Source: a virus
Virus record (IMG/VR): IMGVR_UViG_3300045241_000142
Coordinates: 1 to 36,479 of that record
Length of the DNA stretch: 36,479 bases
Direction: 5' to 3' (one strand)
A model generated the notes under the pieces. That model was not told where the DNA came from. It ran no database searches and saw only the letters and a list, made by a program, of their open reading frames with translations. The translations under genes were made by a program, and so were the position numbers. This document shows positions 2,289 to 32,506 of this stretch, piece by piece; position 1 is the first letter of the stretch; the number at the start of each line of letters is the position of its first letter.

Positions 2289-2522
2289 TTGACGGCATTT
2301 CAATGGGCCTTGATTGCTTTTATCGTTGGGTTCATGGTTGGATTTGCTGTACAAAGATGGCTCACTCATCGTAAGGGTTATGTCGGTACTATTCTCATAA
2401 GTCACGAAGACCAGAAGACGTTATATTCTCTGGAACTCGACGACTACCCCGAAACGATCGCGTTGAAGAAGGAAGTAGTCTTCAAGGTCGATACGACTCC
2501 TGATACTCTCGATCGCGGTTGA
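2289..2522 (+). CDS. Small single-span membrane protein
   Basis: 77 residues, with a TTG start behind GGGGGCGAG; no ATG is available in frame near the N-terminus. Residues 5-25 (WALIAFIVGFMVGFAVQRW) form one membrane segment, followed by a basic stretch and a soluble tail with YSLELDDYPE and KKEVVFKVD. Small proteins with this membrane anchor plus a LELDD...KKxVxxKVD tail are frequent in actinophage genomes, with no known function. The last codons overlap the CGCGG element of the next promoter. Confidence 0.75.
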   Translation: MTAFQWALIAFIVGFMVGFAVQRWLTHRKGYVGTILISHEDQKTLYSLELDDYPETIALKKEVVFKVDTTPDTLDRG

Positions 2523-2537
2523 AACATTGCGTATAAT
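2514..2537 (+). promoter_or_regulatory. Promoter P1 (CGCGG-N13-TATAAT)
   Basis: CGCGG at 2514-2518, AC at positions 6-7 of the 13-base spacer (reading AAACA) and TATAAT at 2532-2537, followed by AAAGGAG and the ATG of the gene at 2561. First member of a repeated promoter family, CGCAG-N5-AC-N6-TATAAT. Its upstream element overlaps the end of the preceding gene. Confidence 0.75.
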
Positions 2538-2560
2538 AGAAACTCTAATAAAGGAGCGTA

Positions 2561-2842
2561 ATGTTCTTACGGCCGAAAGTAAGTAGTCCGGTCGAACTGG
2601 AACTCGGCAGCTTGTTTCGTGAATTGAAGCATCATGCTGTAGATTCCAAGGAATATGCCACGATTCTTGACCGTATCGTGATCTTGCATAACCTGCGTAA
2701 GGATGAAGAAAGCGCAGGTGTGAACAAGAACACGTTGGCACTGATCGGAGGCAATCTCCTGGGGATCTTCATGATCATCAGACACGAGAACGTGAATGTC
2801 GTGACATCCAGGGCGATCAGCCTGTTGACAACGCCGAAGTAA
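2561..2842 (+). CDS. Small membrane-associated protein, unrecognised
   Basis: 93 residues, ATG start six bases after AAAGGAG and driven by its own promoter. The first 55 residues are charged and helical (SPVELELGSLFRELKHH, EYATILDRIVILHNLRKDEE). A moderately hydrophobic segment follows (NTLALIGGNLLGIFMIIRHE), and the end reads VVTSRAISLLTTPK. This plan (soluble helix pair, one membrane segment, short tail) recurs in actinophage small proteins, but I cannot name a function. A rho-independent terminator follows. Confidence 0.75.
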   Translation: MFLRPKVSSPVELELGSLFRELKHHAVDSKEYATILDRIVILHNLRKDEESAGVNKNTLALIGGNLLGIFMIIRHENVNVVTSRAISLLTTPK

Positions 2843-2872
2843 CAGAAGTTTCTTGAAGAGATCTGATATGGG

Positions 2873-2901
2873 GGGCCGCAAACGTGGCCCTTCATATTTT
2901 T
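2873..2901 (+). terminator. Rho-independent terminator after the gene at 2561
   Basis: GGGCCGC and GTGGCCC pair around AAAC (7 bp with one G-T), followed by a T-rich tail TTCATATTTTT. Confidence 0.8.
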
Positions 2902-2905
2902 CTGT

Positions 2906-2929
2906 CGCGGGAAAAACATGCCTTATAAT
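2906..2929 (+). promoter_or_regulatory. Promoter P2 (CGCGG-N13-TATAAT)
   Basis: CGCGG at 2906-2910 and TATAAT at 2924-2929, with the family spacing of 13 and AC in the spacer. No clear gene follows; see the short RNA at 2936. It is nearly identical to P13 (5575-5598) around the core. Confidence 0.75.
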
Positions 2930-2935
2930 GAGAAG

Positions 2936-3061
2936 GACAGAGGTAGAGTCCGCACCCCTATTAAGGAAACTAACGGGGATCTAACACAACTTCACTATTT
3001 AAACGTAACCTTATTAAGGGGTCGGGTGGAGTTGATTCCGGCGGGCTCCTTCTTTTTTTTT
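2936..3061 (+). ncRNA. Candidate short non-coding RNA with its own promoter and terminator
   Basis: A transcript from P2 would start near 2936 and end at the T-tract 3052-3060, about 125 nt. No reading frame inside has a ribosome binding site placed like those of the neighbouring cassettes. The frame from the ATG at 2918 overlaps the -10 box, so its start would not be transcribed, and it runs through the terminator. ACCCCT near 2955 can pair with AGGGGT near 3016, with TAAGG/CCTTA extending the stem. GGAG...CTCC before the T-tract may act as the terminator stem. Function unknown. Confidence 0.5.
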
Positions 3062-3085
3062 CGCACAATAAACAAGGGTTATAAT
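3062..3085 (+). promoter_or_regulatory. Promoter P3 (CGCAC-N13-TATAAT)
   Basis: CGCAC 3062-3066 and TATAAT 3080-3085, with AC in the spacer, then GAAACCTATCGAAAGGA before the ATG at 3108. It begins within the T-tract region of the preceding terminator, so terminator and promoter are fused. Confidence 0.8.
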
Positions 3086-3107
3086 GAAACCTATCGAAAG
3101 GATTAAA

Positions 3108-3257
3108 ATGTGGCCAAACAAAACCATGCGTAACCTTGATCTTGCTCTTGCCTCGATCATCCTCGGTGTCATGATTTACTCATTCACCAAGGACTATATC
3201 AAGGATCGCAGACTCAAGAACGCATGCGCAGTTAACCACTCAGAATCCCCCAGTTAG
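3108..3257 (+). CDS. Small membrane protein, cassette gene 1
   Basis: 49 residues (MWPNKTMRNLDLALASIILG...), ATG after AAAGGATTAAA. Residues 9-27 form one membrane helix (LDLALASIILGVMIYSF). The tail is short and charged, with a single Cys. It has a private promoter (P3) and terminator. Function unknown; a role at the host envelope such as superinfection exclusion is only a guess from its size and topology. Confidence 0.7.
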   Translation: MWPNKTMRNLDLALASIILGVMIYSFTKDYIKDRRLKNACAVNHSESPS

Positions 3258-3263
3258 TTCAAA

Positions 3264-3295
3264 AAAGAGAGTCCTGACACGGATTCTCTTTTTTC
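3264..3295 (+). terminator. Terminator of cassette 1
   Basis: AGAGAGTCC, loop TGACAC, GGATTCTCT and a T-tract. Near-identical copies of this stem end at least five other cassettes (3540, 3831, 4036, 4324, 5170). Confidence 0.9.
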
Positions 3296-3301
3296 ACCCT
3301 G

Positions 3302-3323
3302 AAAAAACCCCGGGGGAAAAATT
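3302..3323 (+). repeat. Isolated ACCCCGGGGGA motif in an A-rich context
   Basis: AAAAAACCCCGGGGGAAAAA lies between terminator and promoter P4. A closely similar sequence (AAAAACCCCGGGGGATAAA) occurs at 20152-20170 as one arm of a long inverted repeat. Role unknown. Confidence 0.4.
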
Positions 3324-3333
3324 CGGATCAAGT

Positions 3334-3357
3334 CGCAGTTATTACTTCGCTTATAAT
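3334..3357 (+). promoter_or_regulatory. Promoter P4 (CGCAG-N13-TATAAT)
   Basis: CGCAG 3334-3338 and TATAAT 3352-3357, then GAAACCTATAAAGGAGG and the ATG at 3378. Spacer TTATTACTTCGCT keeps only the AC of the family consensus. Confidence 0.8.
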
Positions 3358-3377
3358 GAAACCTATAAAGGAGGATT

Positions 3378-3530
3378 ATGTCTACTCGTATTCTCTTCAA
3401 ACAAGCCTTTGTTTGGGGATTTGGAGCATCACTTGGTCAGTTGTGTTTTAACGCACTTGCCAAGACGTTTACTCCAGTCGTCAAGAAGGCTACTGAAAAA
3501 CTCGAGAAGAAACGATCTACCGAAAAATAG
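3378..3530 (+). CDS. Small membrane protein, cassette gene 2
   Basis: 50 residues, ATG seven bases after AAAGGAGG. Residues 8-27 are moderately hydrophobic (QAFVWGFGASLGQLCFNALA), followed by a strongly basic helix ending KKATEKLEKKRSTEK. One amphipathic or membrane helix plus a Lys-rich cytoplasmic tail is a common phage small-protein plan. It has its own promoter and terminator. Function unknown. Confidence 0.7.
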   Translation: MSTRILFKQAFVWGFGASLGQLCFNALAKTFTPVVKKATEKLEKKRSTEK

Positions 3531-3539
3531 TTCAAGAAG

Positions 3540-3571
3540 AGAGAGTCCGAACAAGGATTCTCTTTTTTTTT
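3540..3571 (+). terminator. Terminator of cassette 2
   Basis: AGAGAGTCC, loop GAACAA, GGATTCTCT, then nine T. Same stem as the terminator at 3264. Confidence 0.9.
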
Positions 3572-3595
3572 CGCAGGATAAACGGGGTGTATAAT
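3572..3595 (+). promoter_or_regulatory. Promoter P5 (CGCAG-N13-TATAAT)
   Basis: CGCAG 3572-3576 directly abuts the T-tract of the previous terminator; TATAAT 3590-3595; then GAAACCTATTTAAAGGAG and the ATG at 3619. Confidence 0.85.
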
Positions 3596-3618
3596 GAAAC
3601 CTATTTAAAGGAGTACTT

Positions 3619-3819
3619 ATGCTTTTTCGTAAGAAGAAGGAACCGGCACCTGTTAAGTTTCTTAGAGAGAATCCGAATGAAATGATTATCGCACCCACCT
3701 ATATGGCCGCCTGGTCAAAAAAGGCAAAGACGATCGTCATGAAGTTCGGAGACTTCAGAGAGCTCAGCAAGGAAGAAGCGTTCCTCATTCTCAAGGAAGA
3801 GAACAAAGGCTATCTGTAG
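3619..3819 (+). CDS. Small soluble protein, cassette gene 3
   Basis: 66 residues. A basic start (MLFRKKKEPAPVKFL) leads into FGDFRELSKEEAFLILKEENKGYL, likely a helix. No membrane segment, cysteines or recognised domain. Ribosome binding site AAAGGAG, ATG start, private promoter P5 and terminator at 3831. Function unknown. Confidence 0.7.
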   Translation: MLFRKKKEPAPVKFLRENPNEMIIAPTYMAAWSKKAKTIVMKFGDFRELSKEEAFLILKEENKGYL

Positions 3820-3830
3820 GAATTCAAGAA

Positions 3831-3859
3831 GGAGAGTCCACATGGATTCTCTTTTTTTC
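3831..3859 (+). terminator. Terminator of cassette 3
   Basis: GGAGAGTCC, loop ACAT, GGATTCTCT and a T-tract. Confidence 0.88.
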
Positions 3860-3860
3860 T

Positions 3861-3884
3861 CGCAGGATTTACAGGGCATATAAT
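3861..3884 (+). promoter_or_regulatory. Promoter P6 (CGCAG-N13-TATAAT)
   Basis: CGCAG 3861-3865 with spacer GATTTACAGGGCA and TATAAT 3879-3884, followed by GAAAACTAACAAAGGAG and the ATG at 3907. Confidence 0.85.
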
Positions 3885-3906
3885 GAAAACTAACAAAGGA
3901 GTAATT

Positions 3907-4026
3907 ATGAATTACGGCTTCGGAAAGTTCATCATCGATTGTACCCTGACCTTCTTCACAGGAGGGTTCTGGCTGATCTGGGTGTTCGTTCGCGAGATGC
4001 GTAAGCGTAATACCAGCTTTGCCTAG
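3907..4026 (+). CDS. Very small membrane protein, FWLIWVFVREMR type, cassette gene 4
   Basis: 39 residues: a short polar start, then one membrane helix (TLTFFTGGFWLIWVFV), then a basic REMRKRN tail. The block GFWLIWVFVREMR is repeated almost exactly in the protein at 7081, so the two are paralogues. Small proteins with this pattern occur in actinophages and some bacterial genomes. It has its own promoter (P6) and terminator (4036). Confidence 0.78.
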   Translation: MNYGFGKFIIDCTLTFFTGGFWLIWVFVREMRKRNTSFA

Positions 4027-4035
4027 TTTCAAGAA

Positions 4036-4066
4036 GGAGAGTCCTGACACGGATTCTCTTTTTTTT
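4036..4066 (+). terminator. Terminator of cassette 4
   Basis: GGAGAGTCC, loop TGACAC, GGATTCTCT, eight T. Loop identical to the one at 3264. Confidence 0.9.
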
Positions 4067-4090
4067 CGCAGGATTTACTAGGCATATAAT
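4067..4090 (+). promoter_or_regulatory. Promoter P7 (CGCAG-N13-TATAAT)
   Basis: CGCAG 4067-4071, spacer GATTTACTAGGCA, TATAAT 4085-4090, followed by GAAACCTAAACTAAGGAG and the ATG at 4114. Confidence 0.85.
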
Positions 4091-4113
4091 GAAACCTAAA
4101 CTAAGGAGATTTA

Positions 4114-4335
4114 ATGTTCAAGCTTCGGAAAAAGCGCGAAATCACTAAACTCGAAAAGAATGAGATCATCATCGATTATCTCAATTCCATGATCGAAATG
4201 TACAATCACACGTACCTGGAGAGAGATGGTCTTGAGATGATCAAGGAGATGCTTCTTTTCGAGGAAACAAAGCGCAAGTTCCTGCTGCCGAGAACCATGA
4301 AAGAATTGGATGAAGTTTTAGAAAGGGAGTCCTAA
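4114..4335 (+). CDS. Small helical protein, cassette gene 5
   Basis: 73 residues, charged and predicted helical, no membrane segment. It starts with a basic MFKLRKKREITKLEK and ends ELDEVLERES. The last codons (AGG GAG TCC) form the left arm of the terminator stem, and the stop codon TAA (4333-4335) lies in its loop. The coding end and terminator are therefore fused, which fits boundaries that are copied or exchanged as units. Function unknown. Confidence 0.72.
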   Translation: MFKLRKKREITKLEKNEIIIDYLNSMIEMYNHTYLERDGLEMIKEMLLFEETKRKFLLPRTMKELDEVLERES

Positions 4336-4353
4336 CATGGATTCTCTTTTTTC
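4324..4353 (+). terminator. Terminator of cassette 5, overlapping the coding end
   Basis: AGGGAGTCC, loop TAACAT (contains the stop codon), GGATTCTCT and a T-tract. Confidence 0.85.
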
Positions 4354-4361
4354 CTGCAAAT

Positions 4362-4385
4362 CGCAAGATTTACGGGGTCTATAAT
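4362..4385 (+). promoter_or_regulatory. Promoter P8 (CGCAA-N13-TATAAT)
   Basis: CGCAA 4362-4366, spacer GATTTACGGGGTC, TATAAT 4380-4385, then GAAACCCACTACAAGGAG and a GTG start at 4409. Confidence 0.82.
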
Positions 4386-4408
4386 GAAACCCACTACAAG
4401 GAGTAATT

Positions 4409-4558
4409 GTGTTCAAGAAGTTGAAAAGGATTAAGCGTCGTGAGCGTGTTTGGCAAATTCTGAAAGAAAGAAACCCGGAATTGACCAAGGAACGCTTCGA
4501 CGCCGCTTACGACAACATCAACTACACGATGCAAATCGTAGCAGAGATTCAGAAGTAA
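4409..4558 (+). CDS. Small basic helical protein, cassette gene 6
   Basis: 49 residues. GTG start six bases after AAGGAG; a TTG one base earlier is out of frame. The N-terminus is very basic (MFKKLKRIKRRERVW), followed by QILKERNPELTKERFDAAYDN. The size and basic start suggest nucleic acid or membrane-surface contact, but nothing specific is visible. The stop codon lies in the left arm of the terminator. Confidence 0.68.
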   Translation: MFKKLKRIKRRERVWQILKERNPELTKERFDAAYDNINYTMQIVAEIQK

Positions 4559-4583
4559 GGCCCACACGGGCTTTACTTTTTTC
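4554..4583 (+). terminator. Terminator of cassette 6
   Basis: AGTAAGGCCC and GGGCTTTACT pair around ACAC, followed by six T. The stem differs in sequence from the GAGTCC/GGATTC type but serves the same position. Confidence 0.88.
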
Positions 4584-4589
4584 TTTCCT

Positions 4590-4613
4590 CGCAGAATTTA
4601 CGGGGTCTATAAT
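4590..4613 (+). promoter_or_regulatory. Promoter P9 (CGCAG-N13-TATAAT)
   Basis: CGCAG 4590-4594, spacer AATTTACGGGGTC, TATAAT 4608-4613, then GAGAAGAAAGGAGCC and an ATG at 4629. Confidence 0.82.
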
Positions 4614-4619
4614 GAGAAG

Positions 4620-4717
4620 AAAGGAGCCATGCTCCCAATCCTGCGGGAAAGGGATCAAGTGTGGCTAATCGACCTGGGACAGAAAACTATACCAGCGGAC
4701 TTTCTTTTTTTTTGTCT
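4620..4717 (+). other. Cassette 7: short transcript with a start site but no stop codon before its T-tract
   Basis: From P9 a transcript would carry AAAGGAG and ATG at 4629 in the same position as the other cassettes. The frame (MLPILRERDQVWLIDLGQ...) stays open through the T-tract at 4702-4713 and runs in frame into the next gene, ending at 4895. Either this is a decayed cassette, a non-stop message, a regulatory RNA, or a fusion made only on read-through. CTGG/CCAG pairing before the T-tract is a weak terminator stem. Confidence 0.4.
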
Positions 4718-4724
4718 AAAAACT

Positions 4725-4748
4725 CGCAGGATTTACGGGGCATATAAT
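4725..4748 (+). promoter_or_regulatory. Promoter P10 (CGCAG-N13-TATAAT)
   Basis: CGCAG 4725-4729, spacer GATTTACGGGGCA, TATAAT 4743-4748, then GAAACCTATTTAAGGAG. This copy is close to the family consensus. Confidence 0.87.
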
Positions 4749-4772
4749 GAAACCTATTTAAGGAGATTTGTA

Positions 4773-4895
4773 ATGAAGAAGTTTATGCGTCTGCTTGGTG
4801 CAATCACCGTCGGTCTCATCAAGGGTCTTATTCTTGGTGCGATCCTGATCGTGATCACCGAAGCACTTGCAGCACTATTCAGCAGGTCGAACTAA
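4773..4895 (+). CDS. Small membrane protein, cassette gene 8
   Basis: 40 residues (MKKFMRLLGAITVGLIKGLI...), nearly all one hydrophobic helix with Lys/Arg at the N-terminus and SRSN at the end. ATG lies ten bases after AAGGAG. Own promoter P10 and terminator at 4903. The frame is also open upstream through cassette 7, but the promoter and ribosome site place the start here. Function unknown. Confidence 0.75.
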   Translation: MKKFMRLLGAITVGLIKGLILGAILIVITEALAALFSRSN

Positions 4896-4902
4896 GGTTC
4901 GG

Positions 4903-4933
4903 AAACTAGAGTCTACCCAGACTTTAGTTTTTT
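4903..4933 (+). terminator. Terminator of cassette 8
   Basis: AAACTAGAGTC and GACTTTAGTTT pair around TACCCA, followed by a T-tract that runs into promoter P11. Confidence 0.87.
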
Positions 4934-4957
4934 CGCAGGATAAACAGGGACTATAAT
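4934..4957 (+). promoter_or_regulatory. Promoter P11 (CGCAG-N13-TATAAT)
   Basis: CGCAG 4934-4938, spacer GATAAACAGGGAC, TATAAT 4952-4957, then GAAACCTACTTTAAGGAG and the ATG at 4982. Confidence 0.86.
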
Positions 4958-4981
4958 GAAACCTACTTTAAGGAGTACACA

Positions 4982-5158
4982 ATGTATTTCAGAATCGGTC
5001 TTGTATTGATCCGCTTGATCAACGCGACGATCGTGAGCTTGGGTTGGTGGATGATTGCTACTGTCCTCTGGAACAAGCTCATCGGACCGTTCGTGTTGAC
5101 CGTCAAGCTGACCATCAAGTCCCGGCTCGGAACACTCGTGCAACTGCTGAAGAGCTGA
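4982..5158 (+). CDS. Small membrane protein, cassette gene 9
   Basis: 58 residues. Hydrophobic from the start (MYFRIGLVLIRLINATIVSL, then GWWMIATVLW) with a second, more amphipathic part (FVLTVKLTIKSRLG). One or two membrane helices. Private promoter P11 and terminator. Last gene of the compact array. Function unknown. Confidence 0.72.
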   Translation: MYFRIGLVLIRLINATIVSLGWWMIATVLWNKLIGPFVLTVKLTIKSRLGTLVQLLKS

Positions 5159-5169
5159 GGTATCAGAAG

Positions 5170-5201
5170 AGAGAGTCCCACCATGGATTCTCTTTTTTTT
5201 T
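5170..5201 (+). terminator. Terminator of cassette 9
   Basis: AGAGAGTCC, loop CCACCAT, GGATTCTCT, nine T. Same stem as cassettes 1 and 2. Confidence 0.9.
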
Positions 5202-5206
5202 CTGCT

Positions 5207-5230
5207 CGCAGAAAAAACACGCTCTATAAT
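5207..5230 (+). promoter_or_regulatory. Promoter P12 (CGCAG-N13-TATAAT)
   Basis: CGCAG 5207-5211, spacer AAAAAACACGCTC, TATAAT 5225-5230. It feeds a 230-base leader holding a hairpin and structured RNA copy A before the gene at 5468. Confidence 0.82.
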
Positions 5231-5280
5231 AGAAGAGGTGAACTATGATCCCAGTGTGGATCGACCTCTTCTATTTTCTT
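5231..5280 (+). terminator. Promoter-proximal hairpin, possible attenuator or operator
   Basis: AGAAGAGGT (5231-5239) pairs with ACCTCTTCT (5264-5272), and inside it GATCC (5247-5251) pairs with GGATC (5258-5262). ATTTTCTTT follows. The left arm begins right after the -10 box, so only part would be in the transcript. It may be a transcription attenuator or a DNA-level operator. Confidence 0.5.
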
Positions 5281-5294
5281 TGCCTAGGGGAGGT

Positions 5295-5429
5295 TTGTAG
5301 AGAGATAGCTGAATTAGAAAGAGACGACAATAGCGGGAAACGTGGAATACCCGTTACAAATCGTCTGCCTGTCCACGCAGGAACGTGGCGCTATGGCCAA
5401 AGTGCTGCGCTCGAGCTATCTCTCTACAA
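5295..5429 (+). ncRNA. Structured leader RNA, copy A (with pseudoknot)
   Basis: A perfect 16-bp closing stem joins TTGTAGAGAGATAGCT (5295-5310) and AGCTATCTCTCTACAA (5414-5429). Inside, GAGACGACAA and ACAAATCGT form an ACGA/TCGT stem. It is capped by a CGGG/CCCG hairpin (5334-5353) whose loop contains CGTGG (5341-5345). That loop can pair with CCACG (5373-5377) as a pseudoknot. The conserved block GGAACGTGGCG follows. The same blocks in the same order occur in copy B (5942-6110), with compensating changes in both the hairpin and the pseudoknot. It sits directly upstream of the ribosome binding site of the gene at 5468, as a cis-regulatory RNA would. I do not recognise the class. Confidence 0.75.
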
Positions 5430-5467
5430 GTCTCTCTTATATCTTAAACAAACTAGAAAGGATTAAA

Positions 5468-5920
5468 GTGCCTACTATCGAACACAAGGTAACGTTTGAC
5501 AAGGCATTTGAGGGCATTACCAATCATGTCAAACGACATAAGGTTGCATATTCCTTTGGCGCTGGAGTTGCTATCGCAGGAATAACATGCGTTATAATGA
5601 GAGGCGTTTATTCGCAACATATCGGGCGTTCCATTGGCATGCCCGCCCAGGGTTCCATTGGAGTGCTGGGAGTGAGTGATGTGAATATACGTCCTCTCTC
5701 ATTTTTCTCTAGGCAAAACGTCGTCACAGTAATTGAGGCAAATCGTCAAGGTCCTCCAAGTTGGGTAGTTCGGTGCAAAGAAACATTGGATATTTTCCCC
5801 TCACAAAACGCCGCGGCTAAAGAAATGGGATTGGCTCGATACCATCTTTCCGATCATCTGAATGGGGCAAGAGATCACGTAAATGGTTTTACGTTCGAAC
5901 GAATTTGTATGGCTGCATAA
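5468..5920 (+). CDS. Membrane-anchored protein with C-terminal NUMOD1-like DNA-binding motif
   Basis: 150 residues from GTG at 5468, seven bases after AAAGGA; the longer open frame upstream overlaps structured RNA A and is rejected. Residues 1-26 are soluble (NHVKRHK before the membrane), residues 27-46 form one membrane helix (AYSFGAGVAIAGITCVIMRG), and a linker follows. The C-terminus (about 100-150: WVVRCKETLDIF, SQNAAAKEMGL, HLSDHLNGARDHVNGFTFER) resembles the NUMOD1-type helix-turn-helix seen at the ends of HNH homing endonucleases. No nuclease motif is present. Similar membrane-plus-NUMOD proteins are known in phages and bacteria without a proven role. A second promoter (P13) lies inside the gene exactly at the end of the membrane-helix codons. 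Confidence 0.75.
   Translation: MPTIEHKVTFDKAFEGITNHVKRHKVAYSFGAGVAIAGITCVIMRGVYSQHIGRSIGMPAQGSIGVLGVSDVNIRPLSFFSRQNVVTVIEANRQGPPSWVVRCKETLDIFPSQNAAAKEMGLARYHLSDHLNGARDHVNGFTFERICMAA
5575..5598 (+). promoter_or_regulatory. Promoter P13 inside the gene at 5468
   Basis: CGCAG 5575-5579, spacer GAATAACATGCGT, TATAAT 5593-5598, followed by GAGAGG. Similarity to P2 extends beyond the core, so this is unlikely to be chance. It could drive a shorter form of the protein lacking the membrane helix (in-frame ATG at 5639, no good ribosome site), or the downstream RNA copy B and the gene at 6122. Confidence 0.65.
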
Positions 5921-5941
5921 TCACGGCAAGAAGTAACTTAA

Positions 5942-6110
5942 TTGTAGAGGTTTACGGGAGCGGGGACTGTTATTGAGAGACGACAAAAAATGAGAAGCTG
6001 GCACTCTCATTTACAAATCGTACGCCCTTCCAGCGGGGAACGTGGCGGGGGATATCTGGCATTGGACAGAATTCAATCGCTCCAGTCTCCGTTTCCGTAA
6101 GCCTCTACAA
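5942..6110 (+). ncRNA. Structured leader RNA, copy B (with pseudoknot)
   Basis: TTGTAGAGG (5942-5950) pairs with CCTCTACAA (6102-6110); TTACGG/CCGTAA and GGACTG/CAGTC extend the closing stem. The core has GAGACGACAA, an AATGAGA/TCTCATT hairpin with GCTGG (5997-6001) in its loop, ACAAATCGT, then CCAGC (6030-6034) and GGAACGTGGCG. GCTGG/CCAGC is the pseudoknot partner pair here, replacing CGTGG/CCACG of copy A, so pairing is kept while sequence differs. The right arm ends at the AAGGAG ribosome site of the gene at 6122, an arrangement suited to translational control. Confidence 0.75.
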
Positions 6111-6121
6111 GGAGTATATTC

Positions 6122-6361
6122 ATGCCCGATTTTGTTGTCTTGCGTCAAATTCCAGAGGGGTCTTGGGCTGATTGTTTCGACGTTCTCTACGTAGATGTAA
6201 CAGCTGAAACAGCTGAAGAGGCTATTCGAACAACGGCCAGAGATGATATTAAAGGAGGTGCAGGTCGTTACATCGCGATTCCGAATGAATGGTGGATTGC
6301 TCAGAACGTAACGGTGAAAAAGATCGCAGAAGTCAATATGGAGCCTCAGGAGATGATTTGA
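6122..6361 (+). CDS. Small conserved-looking protein, unrecognised
   Basis: 79 residues, ATG after AAGGAGTATATTC, immediately downstream of structured RNA B. It looks like a mixed alpha/beta fold (DFVVLRQIPEGSWADCFDVL, then ETAEEAIRTTARDD, then YIAIPNEWW). The EEAIR...D helix followed by a YIA/VP segment is common in small actinophage proteins that process or bind short ligands, but no function is known. Its stop codon overlaps the start of the next gene. Confidence 0.7.
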   Translation: MPDFVVLRQIPEGSWADCFDVLYVDVTAETAEEAIRTTARDDIKGGAGRYIAIPNEWWIAQNVTVKKIAEVNMEPQEMI

Positions 6362-6567
6362 TGGACGATAAGACGAATCCTGACCTATTTCCTCCGCTTT
6401 ACGATTGGTCCGACATGCCCAAATTCTGGCCTCAGGGACAGAAAGAAGAAAATGACAGAGATCCGGTTCAAAAAACAGCATCTAGGCCAATGGAGAAGGG
6501 ACGACGGAGAAACAAAAACTCACGTAAATTGGGAGACAATGTTTCTCGAGATCTCGAAGCTCATTGA
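6361..6567 (+). CDS. Small acidic protein overlapping the next gene
   Basis: 68 residues from an ATG overlapping the previous stop (TGATG). The N-terminal half is acidic and aromatic (DLFPPLYDWSDMPKFWPQG); the C-terminal third overlaps the gene at 6452 in another frame and looks like low-quality coding (Arg/Lys-rich). An A6 run (CAAAAAAC near 6469) lies where a +1 shift would join the good first half to the good second frame. It may therefore be one 90-residue protein made by frameshifting, or one gene split by an indel. Confidence 0.5.
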   Translation: MDDKTNPDLFPPLYDWSDMPKFWPQGQKEENDRDPVQKTASRPMEKGRRRNKNSRKLGDNVSRDLEAH

Positions 6568-6634
6568 AGATGGTTGGAAAGCTAACGTTGACGGCGTTAC
6601 CCATATTCGGACAATAACCGTTGTAAAGGAGTAA
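6452..6634 (+). CDS. Small protein, unrecognised
   Basis: 60 residues, ATG four bases after AAGAAGAA. The sequence (FKKQHLGQWRRDDGETKTH, then WETMFLEISKLIEDGWKANV, then THIRTITVVKE) looks like a genuine small alpha/beta domain, with an ISKLIEDGW helix and a closing beta-strand. It shares 116 bases with the gene at 6361 in another frame. Function unknown. Confidence 0.6.
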   Translation: MTEIRFKKQHLGQWRRDDGETKTHVNWETMFLEISKLIEDGWKANVDGVTHIRTITVVKE

Positions 6635-6638
6635 CATC

Positions 6639-6812
6639 GTGTTTTTCTTCTTTCGTGAGGACAAAAAGATCAAAGAAAATCATGATCGTCAAGTTCGTCG
6701 AGTTTTGAGGATGCACGAGTTCGGATATTCGAACACTGAGATCGCCGACATTATGGGAATCAGTAAAGACGATGTTCGCGATCTTCTGCAGGAAAAAGAG
6801 AAGGCTGCCTGA
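6639..6812 (+). CDS. Small helix-turn-helix protein
   Basis: 57 residues, GTG nine bases after AAAGGAG. After a basic lead, RRVLRMHEFGYSNTEIADIM and GISKDDVRDLL form a helix-turn-helix of the sigma-region-4 / transposase type (E-I-A...G-I-S..D-V). It resembles the HTH motifs in the large polymerase-like protein at 33343. It could be a small DNA-binding regulator of the promoter family around it, but that is inference. Confidence 0.72.
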   Translation: MFFFFREDKKIKENHDRQVRRVLRMHEFGYSNTEIADIMGISKDDVRDLLQEKEKAA

Positions 6813-6830
6813 TATTTCAAGGAGGCTTCA

Positions 6831-7001
6831 ATGAGCGGGACTCAACAAGTCGAGTTGAAGTGTGGACATTCTGTTGTCTTCACAATCGAGTCCTTGAAGC
6901 ACAATGGATATCCTTACAGGTGGTGGTGTCCTGTTTGTCGTATATCCTCAGATGTCTCTTCCGATAGGCTAGCCGGAAAAACCTATCAGGAATCGCAGTA
7001 G
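6831..7001 (+). CDS. Small zinc-ribbon-like protein
   Basis: 56 residues, ATG after AAGGAGGCTTCA. KCGH near residue 11 and WWCPVCR near residue 32 give a C-x-H...C-x2-C set that could hold one zinc ion. Small zinc ribbons are abundant in actinophages and may bind nucleic acid or act as structural adaptors. The stop codon overlaps the upstream element of promoter P14. Confidence 0.65.
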   Translation: MSGTQQVELKCGHSVVFTIESLKHNGYPYRWWCPVCRISSDVSSDRLAGKTYQESQ

Positions 7002-7017
7002 AAACATCTCGTATAAT
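6994..7017 (+). promoter_or_regulatory. Promoter P14 (CGCAG-N13-TATAAT)
   Basis: CGCAG 6994-6998, spacer TAGAAACATCTCG, TATAAT 7012-7017. The transcript would begin at a terminator-like hairpin before the gene at 7081. Confidence 0.8.
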
Positions 7018-7022
7018 AGAAG

Positions 7023-7070
7023 GAAGCACAAAAAGTCCGTAATAGGACGCTTCTTTCTTTTTAAATTTTT
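7023..7070 (+). terminator. Terminator-like hairpin at the very start of the P14 transcript
   Basis: GAAGC (7023-7027) pairs with GCTTC (7049-7053) and GTCC (7035-7038) with GGAC (7045-7048); TTTCTTTTTAAATTTTT follows. Placed between promoter and ribosome site, it looks like an attenuator controlling the gene at 7081. Confidence 0.6.
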
Positions 7071-7080
7071 CGGAGGTAAT

Positions 7081-7233
7081 ATGATCGTTTATGTTGTAGA
7101 ACGAAGGCGTTACGGTTTCTGGAAATTCGTCGGTGATTGTTTAATGACGATATTCACCTGGGGTTTTTGGCTGATCTGGGTATTCGTCCGCGAGATGCGA
7201 AATCGAAACTCCAGGTATCCGTACTCTTGTTAG
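7081..7233 (+). CDS. Small membrane protein, paralogue of the gene at 3907
   Basis: 50 residues, ATG after CGGAGGTAAT. A short basic N-terminus (MIVYVVERRRYGFWKFVGD) precedes a membrane helix and the block GFWLIWVFVREMRNRN, almost identical to the 39-residue protein at 3907. Its leader carries a terminator-like hairpin, so expression may be attenuated. Function unknown. Confidence 0.75.
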   Translation: MIVYVVERRRYGFWKFVGDCLMTIFTWGFWLIWVFVREMRNRNSRYPYSC

Positions 7234-7342: not shown

Positions 7343-7504
7343 ATGATGCAGAAAAAGCTAATGTATAGAGTAACTCTTCGTGCCAAAAATGGCCTAATGT
7401 GGTCCGTATTCATTAGGGCATATTCTCGTGACGAAGCTGAAGATCGAGCACTGAAGCGTAATCCCGGTACTCGAATCGATCGTTCACCTTTTCCACAAAG
7501 TTGA
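7343..7504 (+). CDS. Small protein, unrecognised
   Basis: 53 residues from ATG 7343 after AAAGAG. A short beta-strand start (KKLMYRVTLRAKNG) leads to SVFIRAYSRDEAEDRALKRN, a strand-helix pattern (A.S.DEAE..A) widespread among small phage proteins. Ends eleven bases before the DUF6353-like gene. Confidence 0.62.
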   Translation: MMQKKLMYRVTLRAKNGLMWSVFIRAYSRDEAEDRALKRNPGTRIDRSPFPQS

Positions 7505-7514
7505 AAGGCTAATT

Positions 7515-8339
7515 ATGCTGATTGGTTTGGCTCAGAGGCTTCATTATGTGAAGTTCCTGTTGAACGAACATTCTCCAACCATTCTGACTGGTGTGGGAGT
7601 AGTCGGTACCGTCTCGACCGCATATTTGACAGGACGTGCGACCGTCAAAGCGGTGAAGATCATCGAAGAGAATAGTAAAGAATACGATCCAGAGTATAAT
7701 CCGGTCACAGCTGAGACTTATTACGAGCCTCATAAGATCGAGTTGTCGACTACACGAAAGATTCGTCTGGTCTGGAAGTCCTATATTCCGCCGGTCGGTA
7801 TGGGTGCTACGACCATTTCAGCTATTATCCTGGCCAACAAGATCTCTTCAAAGCGAATTGCTGCTCTGGGTGTTGCTGCCGGTCTCTCGGAAAGAGCTCT
7901 TCAAGAGTATAAGGACAAAGTTCTCGAGAAGATCGGTAAAAGTCAGGACACGGCTGTTCACGATGAGATCGCTCAAGATCGAGTAAATCAACATCCTGTG
8001 AACTCTCGTGAAGTTATTCTCGCTGGTACGGGCGAGGTTCTCTGTTTCGACATGTCATCTGGGCGATATTTCCAGAGCACTGTCGAGGAGATCAAGCGAG
8101 CAGAGAACAAGATTAATTTCAACCTCGTTCACTACATGCATGCCAGTCTGAGCGAGTTCTATGACGAAATCGGTCTTCCTCCGACATCATATTCTGACAC
8201 GGTCGGATGGAATCTGAACAACAAGATCGATGTAAGGATCTCAGCAGTCGTGTCCAGTGATAATCGACCATGTCTCGCGATCGACTTCGCAAATCCACCG
8301 TATACCGATTACGACAAGAAGGCCTGGGATGCTCCCTGA
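7515..8339 (+). CDS. DUF6353-like phage membrane protein, copy 1
   Basis: 274 residues. Two membrane segments near residues 20-42 (SPTILTGVGVVGTVSTAYL) and 92-112 (PPVGMGATTISAIILANKI), separated by a charged loop. Then come a helix with ALQEYKDKVLEKIG, a hydrophilic region, and a C-terminal domain ending in FANPPYTDYD. The plan, and motifs such as GVG-VG-xxT.....RAT and GLP....Y...VGW, match the protein at 10845, so these are paralogues. I recall this family as DUF6353, found in phages of Gram-positive bacteria, function unknown. It overlaps the next gene by 11 bases. Confidence 0.75.
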   Translation: MLIGLAQRLHYVKFLLNEHSPTILTGVGVVGTVSTAYLTGRATVKAVKIIEENSKEYDPEYNPVTAETYYEPHKIELSTTRKIRLVWKSYIPPVGMGATTISAIILANKISSKRIAALGVAAGLSERALQEYKDKVLEKIGKSQDTAVHDEIAQDRVNQHPVNSREVILAGTGEVLCFDMSSGRYFQSTVEEIKRAENKINFNLVHYMHASLSEFYDEIGLPPTSYSDTVGWNLNNKIDVRISAVVSSDNRPCLAIDFANPPYTDYDKKAWDAP

Positions 8340-28200: not shown

Positions 28201-28619
28201 GTGTAAACAATCCAAAAGCCATTCGTATTTTCACGTCTCAAGGATGGCAGGATATAGCGATTCGGGGATCTGATGGTCCACCGGGGCCACCAGGCGTTAC
28301 GGGAGCTCCAGGATCTCCTGGTCCACCAGGTGACGTCGAAATATACGAGCAACCCAATATTCCAACCGAGCCAGTTGAAATTGGAGCTCTTTGGATAGAT
28401 ACCGATGCTGCTCCGTCAGGCTTTGTGTCTACATTCATTTTTACACAAAGTATGCCATCTGCTACTTGGACTATTGTTCATAATTTGAACAAATGGCCAT
28501 CGGTAACAATTATAGATTCTGGGGATAGCATTATTATTCCTAGTGTTCACTATGATAGCGTAAATCAAATCACGGTAACATTTGGTTCAGCGACTTCGGG
28601 GAAGGCTTATCTCAACTGA
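28197..28619 (+). CDS. Short collagen-like tail fibre protein
   Basis: 140 residues. The start NPKAIRIFTSQGWQDIAIRG is nearly the same as that of the protein at 31395. A collagen-like part (GPPGPPGVTGAPGSPGPPGD) follows, then EIYEQPNIPTEPVEIGALWI, the linker also present in the fibre at 26011. The C-terminal domain (ATWTIVHNLNKWPSVTIIDS, then ITVTFGSATSGKAYLN) is a common fibre-tip fold. Reads as a recombinant of neighbouring fibre modules. Confidence 0.7.
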   Translation: MSVNNPKAIRIFTSQGWQDIAIRGSDGPPGPPGVTGAPGSPGPPGDVEIYEQPNIPTEPVEIGALWIDTDAAPSGFVSTFIFTQSMPSATWTIVHNLNKWPSVTIIDSGDSIIIPSVHYDSVNQITVTFGSATSGKAYLN

Positions 28620-31394: not shown

Positions 31395-31616
31395 ATGAGT
31401 ATTGTCAACGCTCACCCGGTACGTGTCAAAACTTCTGATGGTTGGCAGGAATTGGCTCTTACCGGACCGCAAGGACCTCCTGGGCTACAAGGAGCTACAG
31501 GCCCAGCTGGACCTCCGGGGCCACCAGGCACAGGTGGAACTGGTGGAAATATCGATGGTGGTACACCTAGTTCAAATTATGGAGGCATTACCGCAATTGA
31601 TGGTGGAGGCGTGTAA
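31395..31616 (+). CDS. Short collagen-like protein
   Basis: 73 residues. [18 protein letters not shown] is nearly the start of the protein at 28197; then [20 protein letters not shown] (collagen-like) and a glycine-rich end. Either a small structural adaptor or the remains of a fibre gene, with the same N-terminal module re-used. Confidence 0.65.
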
Positions 31617-32506
31617 TGGCAACCCAAATTCAACTTCGGCGTGGGACCGCCTCTGCATGGACTGCATCTAACCCATTACTTGCTGCAGGCGAAATGGGAG
31701 TCGAGCTTGATACGTTGAAATACAAAGTTGGAGATGGTTCAACGTTATGGGCAGCTCTTCCCTATTCTAGCGGAGCTCCAGGTCCAACCGGTGCACAAGG
31801 ACCAAAGGGTGACCCAGGAGCACAAGGAACTCCAGGAACTCCAGGTGTTGCTGGTTCTACTGGCCCACAGGGGCCAAAAGGTGATCCAGGAGCTGACAGC
31901 ACTGTACCCGGTCCGCAAGGACCAGCTGGGGCAACAGGTCCGCAGGGGCCAAAAGGTGATACAGGAGCGCAAGGACCTCCTGGAAGTGGTGGTGGAGGTT
32001 CGATAGTTCCTCCAATTATTACAAATCTTTGGGTACCGATTTTTCCTTATGCCCAATTAGGTACGCAATCAATTGGTGCAGGAATGAATCGTATTACTCG
32101 AGGAGTACTTGGAAGTGCAGTTAAAACAGCTCAAATGGAAGTGGCAACAGCTGGAGCAACTAATATTGTTATAGTTGCTTACGCCGATACGCCAAGTGGT
32201 CCAGGCGCTTTGGCTCTGCAATCAGCTCCAATATCTGCTGCTGCTACTGGTGTTTTTACTGTTCCTTTCAGTTTGGCTGCTGGAACATGGTGGTTAGGCG
32301 TTCAGAATGTTGGATCAGTTGGTGTTACATTGAGAACTGTACTTGCTTTGAATCCATATCTACCAGGCATCGATACACCTGGAACCAATGCACTTAACAG
32401 CTGCTGGTATATAACTGGCCAAGGCGCAGTAATTCCAGATCCTTGGCCGGTAACAGGAATACTTAGAGCTGGTGCTATGCCGAACTTATATTTCCAAGGT
32501 GTTTGA
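31616..32506 (+). CDS. Fibre protein with Mtd-like N-terminus and collagen-like shaft
   Basis: 296 residues from ATG 31616 overlapping the previous stop (TAATG). [20 protein letters not shown] and [19 protein letters not shown] are the N-terminal module seen in major-tropism-determinant-like and other fibres. Collagen-like triplets follow ([20 protein letters not shown] and more, to about residue 125). The C-terminal domain is beta-rich ([20 protein letters not shown]). Likely receptor-binding. Confidence 0.72.

Follow-up and report, generated by a model that had tools for sequence, protein, structure and literature searches.

Two neighbouring stretches of one phage genome, here called copies A and B, had been proposed in an initial annotation to be copies of an unrecognised structured RNA with a covarying fold, most likely a riboswitch-like or protein-binding leader. 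The question that they raise is whether the fold is real and, if so, what kind of RNA it belongs to. The window, i.e. the whole stretch of DNA that was analysed, comprises 36,479 bases and is a virus record of IMG/VR. It is siphovirus-like and its gene content is akin to that of actinobacteriophages: it encodes ReqiPepy6 Gp37-like and Sipho_tail proteins (domain matches), an actinophage-type DNA polymerase family is present, and one membrane protein has relatives in 237 phage records, mostly of Arthrobacter, Gordonia, Streptomyces and Rhodococcus. Proteins of the structural region carry collagen-like Gly-X-Y repeats (31460-31990 and 28263-28321). Both copies lie in a region (2500-7100) made up of small genes behind repeated TCGCAG...TATAATGA promoters.

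The ordered blocks said to be shared by A and B occur exactly twice in the window (at 5323 and 5979, + strand) and in none of 100 shuffles. The shared closing ends, TTGTAGAG...CTCTACAA, are where they had been placed in both copies, and the closing helix, P1, exceeds the shared 8 bp; that of copy A comes to 26 bp, G-U pairs included, and may reach from about 5285 to 5437 with G-U pairs. The two hairpins were also found as described, AGCGGG/CCCGTT in A and AAATGAGA/TCTCATTT in B. As to the pseudoknot that was thought to join each hairpin loop to a downstream segment, its pairings are present (CGTGGA/TCCACG in A, GCTGG/CCAGC in B) but its type had to be revised: the downstream partner is the hexaloop of a second hairpin (CCTG-TCCACG-CAGG in A, CCCT-TCCAGC-GGGG in B), and the two elements are actually kissing loops. 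The resulting parsing is given in Table 1.

Table 1. Parts of RNA copies A and B, and the upstream neighbour of copy A, in window coordinates
Feature	Position	Strand	Basis
Copy A of the RNA	5295-5429	+	sequence; homologue A'
A: P1 5' strand TTGTAGAGAGATAGCT, pairs with 5414-5429	5295-5310	+	helix parsing; L007 comparison
A: P2 5' strand AGACGA, pairs with TCGTCT 5361-5366; conserved CAA next	5322-5327	+	
A: hairpin 1 AGCGGG/CCCGTT; kissing loop CGTGGA 5341-5346	5332-5355	+	
A: conserved ACAAA, 3' side of internal loop	5356-5360	+	
A: single unpaired G before P3	5367	+	
A: hairpin 2 / P3 CCTG/CAGG; hexaloop TCCACG 5372-5377 pairs with 5341-5346	5368-5381	+	
A: conserved AA, then P4 GTGGC 5385-5389 / GCTGC 5404-5408	5382-5408	+	sequence
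A: P1 3' strand AGCTATCTCTCTACAA	5414-5429	+	
Copy B of the RNA	5942-6110	+	sequence; homologues in L007 (~2439-2610) and L023 (~7800-7970)
B: P1 5' strand, 28 bp with 6083-6110, G-U included	5942-5969	+	
B: GAGACGACAA; P2 ACGA pairs with TCGT 6018-6021	5977-5986	+	
B: hairpin 1 AAATGAGA/TCTCATTT; kissing loop GCTGG 5997-6001	5988-6012	+	
B: hairpin 2 / P3 CCCT/GGGG; hexaloop TCCAGC 6029-6034	6025-6038	+	
B: AA, then P4 GGCGG 6044-6048 / TCGCT 6077-6081; weaker than in most members	6039-6081	+	sequence
B: P1 3' strand; Shine-Dalgarno of gene 6122-6361 begins at its end	6083-6110	+	
Upstream neighbour, outside the RNA: phage promoter TCGCAG..TATAATAG, hairpin AGAAGAGG..CCTCTTCT and T-rich stretch	5200-5282	+	sequence

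A relaxed pattern scan yielded one close relative of the window with both copies, L007; its other nine matches were due to chance. The L007 homologue of copy A (A', 769-904, 93% identity) differs from it in ways that preserve the helices: both the C-G to T-A double change in P1 and the change of hairpin 1 from CGGG/CCCG to CGAG/CTCG are compensatory, and a T-to-C change in P4 improves a G-U pair. The open frame running over copy A (5245-5466) is not conserved in L007: there the TAG of TTGTAG interrupts the homologous frame. Two further contigs were reached via a neighbouring protein: L023, and L019 with another two copies. A covariance model built from six sequences (R1) then confirmed at least about 24 more of the loci that a wider pattern scan had picked up, and later scans added others. 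A second model, R2, added second copies in G012 and G032, which form a third subfamily (GAGCCGACAA...CAAAGCGGCTGCC, kiss CGCAAC/GTTGCG); a further copy was found in L205 (kiss CGTAAC/GTTACG). Both models were built without a kiss term and their E-values are rough. Altogether the family comprises at least about 35 distinct copies on about 30 uncultivated phage contigs (IMG/VR) in about a dozen unrelated contexts, a lower bound that reflects pattern-limited scans of IMG/VR. The covarying homologues that the initial annotation had proposed to look for thus exist, in unrelated phages.

The claim that the class is unrecognised held against Rfam 15, where the RNA stayed below the gathering cut-off of each of the 4,227 families and the only matches were to neighbouring tRNA or tmRNA; low-stringency scans of A, B and the L118 copy gave just chance matches, far under cut-off. 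A whole-record model search of 13 cultured phages (Nithya, ReqiPoco6, ReqiPepy6, SheRa, Scap1, Bing, Secretariat, Zeina, HTVC008M, DLP_6, Syn1, DSL-LC01 and T4) returned nothing convincing, the match in HTVC008M being rejected as it lies within coding sequence. BLAST, which is insensitive to such an RNA, found no homologue among cultured phages and plasmids, one search retrieving tRNAs only. Four pattern matches, none convincing, came from 84,980 species genomes of cellular organisms, and R2 had no match in 200 genomes of one phylum, a search run without positive control. The conserved blocks were not reported as a phage RNA in the matches listed by a search of open full text, a source that leaves most subscription papers and preprints outside; the unnamed candidate sets of large phage RNA screens may contain the RNA already.

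Several look-alikes were set aside. Most pattern-scan matches, L022 4346 among them, were chance occurrences in coding DNA. An element of L018 (~8150-8300, GGCGACAA..CCAAATCACC) looked like a diverged member and was excluded, being missed by R2 and devoid of a kiss; the same blocks are found in L007 (~2300-2437) inside a 16-bp closed element, TTACTAAGACACAGGC/GCCTGTGTCTTAGTAA, which is family-like but has neither kiss nor model match. Two conserved hairpin-rich elements, GGATCAAGGTTCGCATCGACGGAGTCCTTGAT... (L007 ~905-1000, L023 ~7715-7795) and GGATCGGCTGACTACG...CGCCAACTACCGGATCGCC (L007 ~1010-1130, L023 ~7500-7590), display changes that look compensatory and are absent from the window; they are possibly other RNA families.

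All 31 members that were parsed have an identical architecture. The core begins with P2, a junction helix (GRCGA/UCGYC) in which C-G and G-C pairs are invariant, topped by a conserved internal loop (CAA/ACAAA) and hairpin 1; it continues with one invariant unpaired G, hairpin 2 (P3, 3-5 bp with a loop of 6-7 nt), and AA(A/C/G), the AA(A)-GCGG segment opening P4. In most members the core is enclosed by P1, whose length varies from 6 to 28 bp. The 6-nt loop of P3 is complementary to the loop of hairpin 1 in 31/31 members, with 14 different loop sequences. In a hand-built, structure-fitted alignment of 26 rows, 98.8% of the cells pair and 206 cells are changed on both sides (versus 56 in shuffles); the covariation score is 0.80, versus 0.19 for shuffles and at most 0.12 for slid versions. 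An independent, model-made alignment without the kiss gave 0.63 versus 0.17. Because the sequences and the alignment had been picked with the blocks in mind, the kiss was tested separately. With the 14 distinct P3 loops, own partners formed 83 contiguous pairs; permuted partners formed 56 on average and 73 at most, and none of 20,000 permutations reached the value of the own partners. Among pattern matches, the full architecture including the kiss was found in 25 of the 25 that were model-positive against 2 of the 55 that were model-negative. The loops vary among viruses yet almost always match, and therefore the fold is real. The covariation scores and the permutation test strongly support the selected, covarying fold claimed at the outset, and show that the loops of hairpin 1 and P3 were selected to pair.

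The settings of the RNA are diverse. In the window and in L007 it lies between small genes; in L019 and L085 it follows a stop codon and precedes the next gene's promoter. The L023 copy precedes another gene, as the 79-aa gene that follows copy B in the window is missing there. On marine T4-like contigs the RNA is found about 25-50 nt upstream of a gp13-like neck gene. Elsewhere the neighbours are themselves RNA genes: the RNA lies between tRNA-Leu and tRNA-Arg (L059/L105), inside a 16-tRNA array (G021, a 147-kb record), beside a phage tmRNA (G016/G019), or with a phage tmRNA and a tRNA array (G031, a 191-kb record). Phage tmRNA genes adjoin members in two different phage records (L200 1678-2064 and L199 2957-3314). 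The downstream genes all differ when window A, window B, L023, L059, L068 and the marine group are compared. The gene 3' of copy A (5468-5920) has an apparent membrane segment and a C-terminal I-HmuI-type NUMOD-like domain (PF22083), without recognised nuclease domain.

From these settings, we consider that A and B probably belong to a family of structured RNAs that tailed phages carry as stand-alone units and that had not been catalogued before. This reading rests on the tRNA and tmRNA neighbourhoods, the promoters that follow the RNA in L019 and L085, the loss of the downstream gene in L023, and the distance of about 250 nt that separates A' from its gene in L007, with two further hairpin-rich elements in between. 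The RNA would be cut out of longer phage transcripts, P1 closing its ends; closed ends are found in stable ncRNAs and in processed RNAs of tRNA arrays. Its action would then be in trans, the RNA serving as a particle, compact or self-associating, whose target is common to many bacterial hosts. Given the tRNA arrays and tmRNAs in its vicinity, a first guess at this target is the machinery of translation or of tRNA processing.

A cis-regulatory leader of the downstream gene, whether riboswitch or protein-binding element, was the favoured interpretation of the initial annotation and now appears unlikely. Both copies had been described as lying directly before a ribosome site; this is true of B, whose P1 abuts the Shine-Dalgarno sequence of the next gene, and hardly of A, where the start codon (5468) comes 39 nt further on, or of the still more distant A'. 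Settings so unrelated would not be expected of a leader that belongs to one gene. In addition, the RNA is kept in L023 though the gene after B is missing, a promoter separates it from the gene in L019 and L085, tRNA genes come next after several members, and there is neither a recurring expression platform nor a conserved terminator or partner sequestering the Shine-Dalgarno sequence. An argument for a leader comes from the marine T4-like members, where the RNA always precedes gp13 and P1 is weak; there a cis role would suit, against the stand-alone reading.

We attach a similarly low probability to processive antitermination, in which the RNA would act in cis on the transcribing RNA polymerase, independently of the downstream gene, like the putRNA of phage HK022. 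As in putRNA (PMC9378689), two hairpins lie side by side and a single G, here invariant, separates them; placement is independent of gene identity. RNA polymerase is common to actinobacteria and marine bacteria, hosts that differ widely, antitermination would help in structured tRNA/tmRNA transcripts, and small terminators abound around copy A. Yet putRNA is described without loop-loop pairing and without a closing P1, copy A lies downstream of the first hairpin-terminator of its promoter rather than ahead of it, and the next gene needs no read-through in L019 and L085, where a fresh promoter follows. A self-cleaving ribozyme or RNA-processing element trimming phage transcripts is more doubtful still: the small conserved internal loop with a tertiary contact, the intergenic location in phages and a long P1 that could serve as RNase III substrate would suit it, but the RNA matches no Rfam ribozyme, its conserved nucleotides are enclosed within helices and no cleavage site is evident, and the length of P1 is very variable. 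Chance resemblance or recent duplication without selected structure, suggested by A and B being neighbours in one genome, is refuted by the homologues in unrelated phages, with their full covariation, and by the kiss permutation test.

The kissing loops could pair within a molecule or between molecules. Tentatively, and with clearly less than even confidence, we suggest that they pair between molecules, each RNA using its two hairpins to bind those of other copies and so giving dimers or rings, and that the loops of paralogues act as different 'addresses' so that the copies do not mix. Paralogue loops differ in all five genomes with two copies, where cross-pairing amounts to 2-4 bp versus 5-6 bp for self-pairing; this would be expected if cross-pairing were avoided and is also compatible with mere divergence. 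In a coarse A-form model, a straight intramolecular kissing rod over-stretches the internal loop in several members (L059, L074, L144, and window A with stacked loop flanks) and a C2 dimer is unstrained. The intramolecular form becomes feasible in the same model once both joints of the kissing helix may be bent, by up to 60 degrees; with bending allowed, the geometric argument for an intermolecular kiss therefore disappears.

Other small transcripts may be made nearby. Minimal promoter-hairpin-terminator units (TCGCAG..TATAATAGAAG...CTTCT-Tn) are found in the window (5200-5282, 4590-4710 and 6990-7062) and in L007 (260-410 and 1575-1690), and would yield RNAs of about 45-120 nt without open frame; a set of small RNA genes thus seems to be present in the phage group of the window. 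The same promoter type is accompanied by degenerate tRNA-like RNAs in the cultured relatives ReqiPoco6 (L026 6007-6080) and Nithya (L025 6426-6481); these are annotated as tRNA-OTHER or unannotated and score as weak tRNAs in Rfam.

Phages of apparently very different hosts share a compact RNA in which a nearly invariant internal loop goes with a fast-changing, always matching loop contact. That it is conserved in phages unrelated to one another points towards a target or use met with in many infections. Being short, easily made and provided with built-in compensatory mutants, the RNA lends itself to direct tests of folding, self-association and function.

How does it compare with known systems? 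A riboswitch or other cis-leader class would differ from it by having a conserved type of regulated gene and an expression platform. The pRNA of phi29, known only from phi29-type phages, also combines an end-closing helix with two hairpins whose complementary loops pair between molecules; its sequence and junction are different, and no link to packaging was seen for the new RNA. RNAs C and D of T4 are small stable RNAs of unknown function encoded in the phage tRNA cluster; an unfiltered model search of this region (rnaC and rnaD, NC_000866 69500-73500) gave no match. The HK022 putRNA (~73 nt) has two hairpins around one unpaired G, the hairpins being bulged and forming a triplex (PMC9378689). 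The invariant G of the new RNA, between P2 and P3, recalls this arrangement, and independence of the following gene in cis would fit, whereas loop-loop pairing and a closing P1 set the new RNA apart. The best functional parallels are GOLLD and ROOL, phage and prophage ncRNAs of unknown function that are often near tRNA islands and assemble through conserved kissing loops, some of them intermolecular (PMC12286853). Phage distribution and kissing loops (predicted from sequence for the new RNA) are common to both, and some members of the new family, though neither copy in the window, are likewise close to tRNA genes. GOLLD and ROOL are many hundreds of nt long, whereas the new RNA is 110-190 nt and unrelated in sequence, and their Rfam models do not match it. 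Should the intermolecular kiss prove true, this would be a natural RNA-only multimer far smaller than GOLLD or ROOL and used by many phage lineages. To conclude, the RNA class appears to be new, and the broad kind to which it belongs, structured phage ncRNA of unknown function, is one already known.
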